A DNA stretch of 45,501 nucleotides from Clostridiales bacterium (GTDB taxonomy: Bacteria; Bacillota; Clostridia; Lachnospirales; Lachnospiraceae). The stretch lies in NCBI GenBank assembly GCA_012519905.1, contig JAAYPG010000145.1:1-45501 (forward strand), given 5' to 3'. Every line of letters starts with the position of its first letter. The stretch's first letter is position 1. The notes under the pieces are model-generated. The model saw only the letters and a list, made by a program, of their open reading frames with translations, did no database searches and was not told the DNA's origin. Shown here piece after piece: positions 20,162-30,175 of the stretch. The translations under genes were made by a program, and so were the position numbers.

Positions 20162-21244
20162 TTATAAATTCTCTGCTTCGAATTTTCTCATGAACTTAAC
20201 CAAAGCTTCAACACCCTCATAAGGCATAGCATTATATATGCTGGCCCTCATACCACCTACGCTTCTATGTCCCTTCAGATTCTCCAGGCCTGCTGCCTTA
20301 GCTTCTTTTACAAACTTCGCATCCAGCTCCTCATTACCAGTTACAAAGGGTACATTCATTAATGAACGGTCTTCCTTCACTACAGTTCCTTTAAATAACT
20401 TACTCTCATCTAAGTAGTCATAAAGAAGCTTAGCCTTTATCTCATTCTTTTCCTTCATAGCCTCAAGGCCACCCATGTTCTTAATCCATTTGAACACCTT
20501 TCCACAGATATAGATACCATATGCAGGAGGTGTATTATATAAAGAAGCATTGTCAGCATGAGTCTTGTACTTTAACATGGTAGGTGTTCCTGGTAAGGTA
20601 TCCTCAGTGATTAAGTCTTCTCTAATAATTGCTATAACCACACCTGCAGGTCCTACATTCTTTTGTACTCCACCAAATAAAAGACCATACTTGGTTACAT
20701 CAATCGGTTCTGATAGGATACAAGAGGATATATCAGCTACAAGATCCTTTCCCTTAGTATTTGGTAGACTCTTAAATTTCGTACCATAGATAGTATTATT
20801 CTCGCATATGTATACATAATCAGCATCTTCGGAAATCGGAAGATCCGAGCAATCAGGTATATATGAGAAGGTTTTGTCAGCAGATGAAGCTATTGCATTG
20901 GCCTTTCCATATAAAGCCGCCTCCTGATATGCTTTCTTAGCCCATTGTCCAGTGATTATATAGTCTGCTACCTTATTCTTCATAAGATTCATAGGAACAG
21001 CTGCAAACTGCTGGGATGCCCCTCCCTGAAGGAAGAGAACCTTATAATTATCAGGAATATTCATTAGTTCCCTTAAATCCTTCTCTGCCTCCTGTATAAT
21101 ACCTTCATATACCTTAGATCTGTGGCTCATCTCCATTACAGACATTCCTGAACCCTTATAATCAAGCATTTCTTCTGCTGCTTCCTTGAGTACTTCTACT
21201 GGAAGCATAGCCGGTCCGGCTGAAAAATTATAAATTCTTCCCAT
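20162..21244 (-). CDS. serC: 3-phosphoserine aminotransferase
   Basis: MGRIYNFSAGPAMLPVEVLKEAAEEMLDYKGSGMSVMEMSHRSK, FGGVQKNVGPAGVV; ATG at 21244 preferred over the TTG at 21262, which overlaps the SD. Confidence 0.95.
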   Translation of the reverse strand: MGRIYNFSAGPAMLPVEVLKEAAEEMLDYKGSGMSVMEMSHRSKVYEGIIQEAEKDLRELMNIPDNYKVLFLQGGASQQFAAVPMNLMKNKVADYIITGQWAKKAYQEAALYGKANAIASSADKTFSYIPDCSDLPISEDADYVYICENNTIYGTKFKSLPNTKGKDLVADISSCILSEPIDVTKYGLLFGGVQKNVGPAGVVIAIIREDLITEDTLPGTPTMLKYKTHADNASLYNTPPAYGIYICGKVFKWIKNMGGLEAMKEKNEIKAKLLYDYLDESKLFKGTVVKEDRSLMNVPFVTGNEELDAKFVKEAKAAGLENLKGHRSVGGMRASIYNAMPYEGVEALVKFMRKFEAENL

Positions 21245-21252
21245 TTCAAAAA

Positions 21253-21400
21253 ACCTCCTCAATTTTTTTATTTTTATAGCAATAATTATAACGGAGGTTT
21301 TACCTCCTCAATTTTTTATTTTATAGCAATAATTATAACGGAGGTTTTACCTCCTCAATTTTTTTTTATAGCAATAATCATAACGGAGGTTTTACCTCCC
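21253..21400 (-). repeat. three tandem 49/47/45-bp units plus partial fourth in the serC 5' leader, each with an SD-like GGAGGT
   Basis: units 21253-21301, 21302-21348, 21349-21393, partial acctccc to 21400; minus strand GGAGGTAAAACCTCC hairpins at the unit junctions. Confidence 0.95.
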
Positions 21401-21464
21401 ACAATCCCCTTATACTATTTCAATTTAAACCATTATAACTTTAATTAAGTAAAGTGATATTAGT

Positions 21465-21493
21465 ATTATAAAACTATGTTATTTTTTTGTCAA
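21465..21493 (-). promoter_or_regulatory. consensus sigmaA promoter for serC
   Basis: minus strand TTGACA (21488-21493) - 17 bp - TATAAT (21465-21470). Confidence 0.8.
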
Positions 21494-28063: not shown

Positions 28064-28939
28064 TTAATTTATTGGAAACTGCATAGCAATTCCTTCTGCC
28101 ATCATTTCAGCCATCTCCATGGCTTGCATTACTATATCGTCAAAGCCATCAACTGCAGCCTGATAATTCTGCTCAAGCATATAGGTCAGATTGTCACTTA
28201 ATAATTCAAGATGCTCCATCAGCATAGCGCTCCAATCCTCTGTACTCCAATATGGATTAATATTACCCAAGAATTCTGCAATTTCATTTGCATTATTTAC
28301 CCATCTTTGCCATATAGCATCCACTTGATTTGTATCCGATGCATTTGCCGCTTCTACAAGCTCTGCGGCAATAGTAATATGCTGACGAAATAGATTCTCA
28401 AATGTTTGTGCAGCCTCGTCACCATAAAAAGGACGAAGTGCATCGGCAAAATCAGTAGCAGTTCGAAGAAGTCTCTGTGTGGAATATTCCAGCTCGGGAA
28501 GATCAAAAAGAATTCCTAGCATGACCAGTCTGGTCCACATTACATGCTGTCCCCAAAGCATAATAAAATATTCTGTCAAGTCGGCTAGCATCTCTGAATT
28601 ATCATCATCCATTATATCGTCCATATCGTCATACATCATGTCATTATGCATCATACCGCCATTCATCATGCCACCATTCATCATGCCACCATTCATCATG
28701 CCGCCATTCATCATGCCGTTATGCATCATGCCATCATTCATCATATTATTATTATCGATGGGATAGCTTGAATAATACTGAAAGCCTGGTCTAATTGTTA
28801 TTACACGCCCAACCTGAAGATTTCTAGGGTCTACACCTGGATTCAATTCCATAATTGATTCAACAGTAGTATTAAACACCTGAGCCAACATCCATAAGGT
28901 ATCATATGGCCGGACTGTATATCTAATTGTTCCATTCAT
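28064..28939 (-). CDS. LysM domain protein with Met-rich repeat and C-terminal helical domain
   Basis: 291 aa; YTVRPYDTLWMLAQVFNTTVESIMELNPGVDPRNLQVGRVITI LysM; MMNGG repeats; helical tail. Confidence 0.85.
   Translation of the reverse strand: MNGTIRYTVRPYDTLWMLAQVFNTTVESIMELNPGVDPRNLQVGRVITIRPGFQYYSSYPIDNNNMMNDGMMHNGMMNGGMMNGGMMNGGMMNGGMMHNDMMYDDMDDIMDDDNSEMLADLTEYFIMLWGQHVMWTRLVMLGILFDLPELEYSTQRLLRTATDFADALRPFYGDEAAQTFENLFRQHITIAAELVEAANASDTNQVDAIWQRWVNNANEIAEFLGNINPYWSTEDWSAMLMEHLELLSDNLTYMLEQNYQAAVDGFDDIVMQAMEMAEMMAEGIAMQFPIN
28630..28744 (-). repeat. 15-bp tandem repeat encoding the GGMMN Met-rich tract
   Basis: repeated attcatcatgccacc/attcatcatgccgcc units. Confidence 0.9.
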
Positions 28940-29628: not shown

Positions 29629-30114
29629 TTATTTTTGTTTTATATAATTTATAAGGCCCTCTGCCTTAATTATTCTTTGCATAAATTCTGGAAAAGCATG
29701 CCCCTGATATTCTCTCTTCTTAGTAAGGTTGCGTATTCTTCCGCTGTCAAAATCCACCTCAACCTCATCACCAGCTTCAATATCCCTGGATGCCTCCTCA
29801 CACTCAACAATAGGAAGTCCTATATTGATAGAGTTTCGATAAAATATTCTGGCAAAGCTATCGGCAATTACGCAACTGATACCAGCAGCTTTTATGGCTA
29901 TAGGTGCATGCTCTCTGGAGGAGCCACAACCGAAATTCTTACCTGCAACCATAATATCACCAGGTTTTACTCTGCTTACAAAGTCCTTATCAATATCTAT
30001 CATGCATTTTTCTGCTAGCTCCTTGGGATTGGAGGTATTCAGATACCTGGCGGGAATTATCACGTCTGTATCCACATTGTCACCATATCGATGTACTAAT
30101 CCTTTTGCTTTCAT
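29629..30114 (-). CDS. leuD: 3-isopropylmalate dehydratase small subunit
   Basis: 161 aa; [37 protein letters not shown]. Confidence 0.95.
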
Positions 30115-30175
30115 TATATCCTCCTCAATTTTTTTATTTTACCATACCAAAGACGAAGGATTTAGCCTCCCTTCC

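Follow-up and report, generated by a model that had tools for sequence, protein, structure and literature searches.

Translational riboswitches act through expression platforms built from anti-Shine-Dalgarno (anti-SD) and anti-anti-SD sequences, and MIRU, BOX and REP are short dispersed intergenic repeats, or miniature inverted-repeat transposable elements (MITEs). The TAACTGA intergenic direct repeats of Beggiatoaceae are built of 7-nt units that show hardly any SD character and overlap the place where the ribosome-binding site (RBS) would be expected (PMC4679880). The STAB-SD of Bacillus thuringiensis cry3A binds the 30S subunit and blocks RNase J1 (PMC4113751). Here we describe a family of ~48-nt repeats, previously unreported, that sits on the RBSs of more than 100 genes in uncultured Herbinix. 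Three tandem copies of this dispersed repeat form the array in the serC leader of the window, by which we mean the whole 45,501-nt stretch analysed (contig JAAYPG010000145.1 of assembly GCA_012519905.1, Clostridiales bacterium, Lachnospiraceae). We tentatively interpret the element as a bistable brake on translation initiation, a reading that falls a little short of even confidence.

Like a riboswitch platform, the element would let an anti-SD pair either with the true SD or with a second, mutually exclusive partner. In contrast to such platforms it lacks an aptamer or ligand domain, that second partner is an SD as well, and the 48-nt module is reused at more than 100 unrelated genes and in tandem. 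It resembles MIRU, BOX, REP and MITEs in being short, dispersed, intergenic and lineage-specific, with tandem arrays of variable copy number; unlike these, nearly every Herbinix copy provides the gene that follows with its SD, the arms vary in step with this SD, and the length of the body is kept while its sequence is almost unconserved. With the TAACTGA repeats it shares a high copy number genome-wide, a position just 5' of start codons, a proposed translational role and lineage restriction, but those repeats have no SD/anti-SD hairpin or pairing rule (PMC4679880), and the Herbinix units are unrelated in sequence and nearly all 44-52 nt long. STAB-SD is likewise a second SD 5' of the true one that does not initiate translation; it stands alone and unmasked, however, close to the 5' end, with no anti-SD, fixed 48-nt spacing or dispersed family (PMC4113751). 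The serC leader was assigned to no Rfam family, its best match reaching 21.4 bits (E 0.65) where the gathering score is 56, and the open-access literature searched on tandem or decoy SDs and SD-containing repeats held nothing equivalent. This absence from both applies whichever of the two principal readings weighed below is correct.

A repeat family at ribosome-binding sites

On the minus strand the serC leader reads GGGAGGTAAAACCTCC, then two TTGAGGAGGTAAAACCTCC repeats and lastly TTGAGGAGGTTTTTTGAAATG, which on re-reading agrees with the sequence quoted in an earlier note on this DNA. Tandem Repeats Finder placed the array at 21253-21399 (period 47, 3.1 copies, 95% matches, score 255). Measured from the start of a hairpin to the next SD, unit 1 (21355-21399, 45 nt) comprises the first decoy SD/anti-SD hairpin (21399-21385) and a spacer, unit 2 (21308-21354, 47 nt) a decoy hairpin at 21354-21340 and a spacer, and the SD-proximal unit 3 (21259-21307, 49 nt) a decoy hairpin at 21307-21293 and a spacer. 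The three units are near-identical, and their length variation is confined to the A/T tract, as described before; a single substitution (ATGATT for ATAATT) has to be added to that description. The true serC SD with its three paired flanking bases, GGAGGTTT, lies at 21251-21258 (minus strand) according to the pairing rule obtained from 171 loci, and is complementary to the unit 3 anti-SD AAAACCTCC. The gene itself (20165-21244, minus strand) encodes a phosphoserine transaminase of 360 aa (NCBIfam TIGR01364, 519.9 bits against a cut-off of 443.6).

The same order of parts recurs throughout the family: a decoy SD hairpin, the anti-SD (NNNCCTCC), a conserved GTT, an AT spacer of ~30 nt, the true SD (GGAGGNNN) and the start codon. 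Copies were gathered by hairpin patterns blind to the downstream SD, supplemented by a single similarity search that had the serC unit as its query. An SD and a same-strand open reading frame (ORF) followed the copy in 172 of 183 evaluable cases. Among these 172 (96 single, 59 double and 17 triple arrays), the distance from hairpin start to true SD was 46-49 nt in 160 and the start codon was ATG in 164, mostly 5-9 nt from the SD. Conservation was limited to a motif of ~13 nt after CCTCC, with no aptamer-like ligand domain, and no column pair other than anti-SD and true SD reached a z above 4 that would point to an extra helix in the spacer. A conserved promoter within the unit, suggested by the -10-like CCTCCGTTATAAT, was ruled out as TATAAT varies between loci. 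A terminator on the opposite strand scored solely from the serC A/T tract, and most copies are without it.

The window's genome (2.59 Mb) contains seven exact occurrences of a 19-mer core, on four contigs, and 46 matches to a 68-nt query, many with a 45-48-nt period; GGAGGN{3,10}CCTCC occurs there 73 times per strand, as against 7 for the reversed control pattern. A covariance model trained on 70 copies, whose E-values are rough, found 115 copies in genome G032, 90 in G008, 88 in G013, 57 in the window's genome, 33 in G014, small numbers in certain others, and none in G006 (complete H. luporum) or G022. These genome-wide counts, derived from pattern and model searches, are probably too low since copies frequently lie at contig ends: all strong carriers are metagenome-assembled genomes (MAGs), and their arrays often coincide with contig ends. 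An assembly artefact was nevertheless set aside, because the arrays recur across several independent MAGs. An exact 18-mer searched in 85,462 named species matched almost only Herbinix MAGs, including Herbinix sp. STF1_226; two single matches in unrelated taxa and a single CALWIA match look like chance. At E 1e-4 and with stricter filters, the window's own genome was the sole match among 388 genomes sampled from the class, the other 387 giving none. In a tree of serC and ispF the GTT-type carriers formed one clade (support 96/80), sister to G006 and G022. The public record of one carrier, G013 (contigs SHOH01, for example locus L069), says Anaerolineaceae, while genome relatedness places it in Herbinix (Lachnospiraceae); the record is mislabelled.

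In eight genomes the element was found at 106 unrelated genes, including metG, cysS, serS, hisS, purM, murD, pyrF, rpsR, flgC, araA and ispF. The earlier note had read the serC leader as a tandem duplication of one initiation region creating decoy SDs. The decoys stand; the local duplication does not, given a dispersed family with a shared motif (GTTRTAWGTWRTG) and fixed spacing, which therefore leaves serC in need of no special explanation. A serine-specific control of serC alone, or the copy-number-tuned one proposed there, could draw on the unit number differing among species, but it is largely refuted by the genome-wide distribution, and we consider it highly improbable. At metG (L015) and valS (L031) in the window's own genome, the element lies between an apparent T-box leader and the start codon, and these genes would have two stacked RNA controls.

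Predicted pairing of the anti-SD with two alternative partners

The three bases preceding CCTCC are the complement of the three bases following the true GGAGG. Anti-SD positions -1, -2 and -3 formed Watson-Crick pairs with true SD positions +1, +2 and +3 at 163, 162 and 152 of the 171 loci, against shuffled means of 83, 115 and 139. The match ends sharply after 3 nt: position 4 gave 39 pairs against 39.0 when shuffled, positions 4 and 5 were both at chance, and anti-SD position -4, just before the paired stretch, is an invariant A. Counting one copy per gene, the full 3-nt match was found in 86/106 (29.9 shuffled), and for the rarer triplet types alone in 33/41 (11.9 shuffled). As a helix measure, 97.9% of positions were paired compared with 88.4% on shuffling (0/500), and sliding by one base reduced this to 63-70%. 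The fit of the anti-SD to its adjacent decoy was lower (139/171). Among 18 cases of unlike units within an array, the SD-proximal one was the better fit to the true SD in 16 and the poorer in 1; of 45 orthologous pairs with differing SD triplets, 29 showed a complete match between SD and own anti-SD in both copies. Consequently the claim that only the last serC SD is free is not safe, as the anti-SD can pair with that SD over at least 8 bp, better than with its own decoy.

Constrained folding gave mean energies of -15.3 kcal/mol for the local decoy hairpin and -16.7 kcal/mol for the distal state, values from ~90-nt fragments that serve as rough guides. The two differed by less than 2 kcal/mol in 86 of 168 loci, and exchanging SD triplets between loci shifted the mean difference from -1.36 to about +0.4 kcal/mol. 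For serC the local state was preferred at 37 °C (-15.3 against -14.0 kcal/mol) and the distal state slightly preferred at 55 °C (-8.5 against -7.9 kcal/mol). At nearly equal predicted energy, each anti-SD can thus mask the true SD or, alternatively, the SD displaced upstream. The earlier suggestion of upstream anti-SDs that could compete for the true SD stands. Judged by sequence, covariation and predicted energy, the element is expected to provide two exclusive pairings, one of them sequestering the SD, as a riboswitch platform does.

The strict SD-to-SD spacing of 46-49 nt and the tandem arrays also invite a different explanation, in which upstream SDs would be 30S docking sites that protect or feed the mRNA, the 48-nt spacing seating ribosomes side by side and additional units raising stability or initiation. 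STAB-SD, with its 30S binding and RNase J1 block, is a precedent (PMC4113751). Against docking, a local anti-SD masks each of the upstream SDs and is itself tuned to the true SD, a match that docking does not need, and many copies are operon-internal, 5-34 nt past a stop codon rather than near a 5' end. We judge this explanation improbable.

A proposed two-state switch weighed against a possible dispersed element

A single copy can be written as old SD (GGAGG)-N(0-2)-A-NNN-CCTCC-GTTRTAWGTWRTG-AT spacer-new SD (GGAGG)-NNN-start codon. In the window's genome the decoy often lies 5-34 nt past the stop codon of an upstream gene, in an operon-internal position where the native SD would be expected. 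The left flank of the first decoy is almost without consensus, while that of the true SD has one. This suggests an old SD in the decoy and a true SD that arrived with the element. The arrival of a copy would thus push the gene's original SD ~48 nt upstream, where it would become the decoy, and supply a replacement. For serC, the nearly consensus-free left flanks of first decoys and the comparison of empty and filled sites in relatives indicate that the GGAGG of unit 1 is probably the ancestral, displaced SD.

A bistable brake is proposed because the two states are nearly equal in predicted energy. In the ON state the anti-SD would be held by the decoy in the local hairpin and the true SD would be open; in the OFF state it would form an 8-bp distal helix with the true SD and mask it, decoy and true SD being mutually exclusive partners. 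As the decoy and anti-SD are transcribed ahead of the true SD, co-transcriptional folding would give the local ON hairpin a head start. If that hairpin were then opened, be it by a 30S subunit bound to the decoy or by a ribosome completing the upstream gene, the anti-SD would be freed to close on the true SD. The analysis establishes the family, its association with SDs, the constant spacing, the covariation and the energies; that the switch operates in cells, its trigger and its direction are what we infer. A broader version, which seems to us unlikely, is a genome-wide, ligand-free cassette of fixed length (decoy SD, anti-SD and SD) spreading over RBSs and setting or sensing initiation (free 30S, upstream-gene translation or temperature) at a few per cent of genes, with its gain tuned by tandem copy number.

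Comparison of related serC leaders bears out the expectation that unit number varies between species: three units were present in G000 and G032 and one in G008 and G014, and the other leaders read had none. The empty site of G004 and G007 reads ...GGGAGGATTAGAAA-ATG and the filled site of G008 ...GAGGGAGGAT-[~48 nt]-TAGAAA-GTG, a gain of ~48 nt within the SD. At ispF the leader carries the element in five genomes and is empty in the remaining 25 read. Presence and absence at orthologous sites within the genus, as known for mobile elements, was thus found at both serC and ispF. Together with the shared motif after CCTCC, this could be explained by a selfish or neutral MITE-like dispersed element that has terminal inverted repeats of 8 bp (NNNCCTCC...GGAGGNNN) and inserts at, or is copied to, SDs. 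Its arms would be kept identical by DNA-level copying (template switching or complementarity-guided target choice), and the local hairpin would merely mask the displaced SD and so make insertion tolerable.

Several observations weigh against the switch and fit such an element better. No G-U pair occurred among 513 cells, and the 36 mismatches were mostly A:A and T:T. RNA-level compensatory evolution normally proceeds via wobble pairs, and the absence of G-U pairs therefore makes DNA-level templating a serious rival. Flanks of element-bearing SDs (TTT/ATT/AAT) differ from those of other genes in the same genomes (T at +2, 0.84 against 0.30; G at +4, 0.44 against 0.16), as though the right end had arrived with the element. 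A regulon by function was rejected on account of the mixed genes (tRNA ligases, ribosomal protein S18, purM, murD, flagellar genes and araA), and within a single clade the number of copies runs from 1 to 115, which looks as much like spreading DNA as regulation. Flanks at empty sites, assessed by eye, are mixed (often already T-rich at ispF, mostly GGAGGAT at serC, not T-rich at cysS) and therefore do not decide between the two explanations.

For function speak the sharp 8-bp limit of pairing, with a match that stops at 3 nt before the invariant A, and the spacer, whose length is held although its sequence diverges: of 85 orthologous pairs, 68 keep it to within 1 nt, at a spacer identity of 0.685, against 0.605 shuffled. 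Spacers of different genes are barely above the shuffled value (0.636 against 0.605; maximum 0.90, in a few AT-rich pairs), and these identities gave no near-identical copies at different loci of the kind left by recent dispersal. No transposase turned up, in work that included no search aimed at one. Also against the MITE-like element, genus members that do not belong to the GTT clade share the architecture but differ in the sequence that follows CCTCC. Their final units match the true SD at 14/15 loci by eye, in a sample retrieved with a pairing-rewarding model and hence biased towards pairing, which limits its value for the switch. One small gene (MKSLEELKAIREKMQ..., redox-type by eye) carries a non-GTT decoy/anti-SD/SD in four Herbinix species outside the main clade (L305, L308, L316 and L329), and its distribution suggests that the architecture is old in the genus. 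A longer non-GTT array at L325 (G009), GGAGGAAAATCCTCCTTGTGAGG..., comprises at least four units with a period of ~50 nt, and its final SD, GGAGGATT, is matched.

The two readings can be compatible. We rank the translation switch first, provisionally, and the self-masking dispersed element second, as a less probable but substantial alternative. If the switch works, one small sequence rewires the translation initiation of more than 100 genes in a lineage with no regulator protein, and ~170 naturally matched variants (different SD triplets, 1-3 or more units) form a mutational series in which to study how SD and anti-SD compete. Should the element prove to be a self-masking mobile repeat, it would be an unusual dispersed element with the RBS as its preferred niche, giving the host a replacement SD.

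The serC promoter and other features of the window

Upstream of the array lies the serC promoter, TTGACA-17-TATAAT (21465-21493, minus strand), which matches the sigma-70 consensus at 12/12 positions and is kept in serC leaders genus-wide. This promoter places the whole array in the 5' untranslated region, as the earlier note had it. An inverted repeat, CTTTA-N6-TAAAG (21439-21454, minus strand), directly follows the -10 box and is present in nearly all serC leaders of the genus irrespective of the array, and it resembles an operator or a component of a leader structure. Model R1 matched serC unit 3 at 21251-21307 (58.4 bits, E 1.4e-11). The anti-SD/SD pair of serC is AAACCTCC/GGAGGTTT.

A second, degenerate copy of the element (GGAGGCTAAATCCTTCG ... 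TTGAGGAGGATA) was found by the same model at 30117-30169 on the minus strand (30.7 bits, E 5.9e-5), directly 5' of a leuD-like ORF, its name recognised by eye, that starts at 30114. This copy has ~20 nt (AAATAAAAAAATTGAGGAGG) in common with the serC RBS. Elsewhere in the window, at 28630-28745, a 15-bp tandem repeat of 7.7 copies (CATTCATCATGCCAC) lies in a probably coding region.
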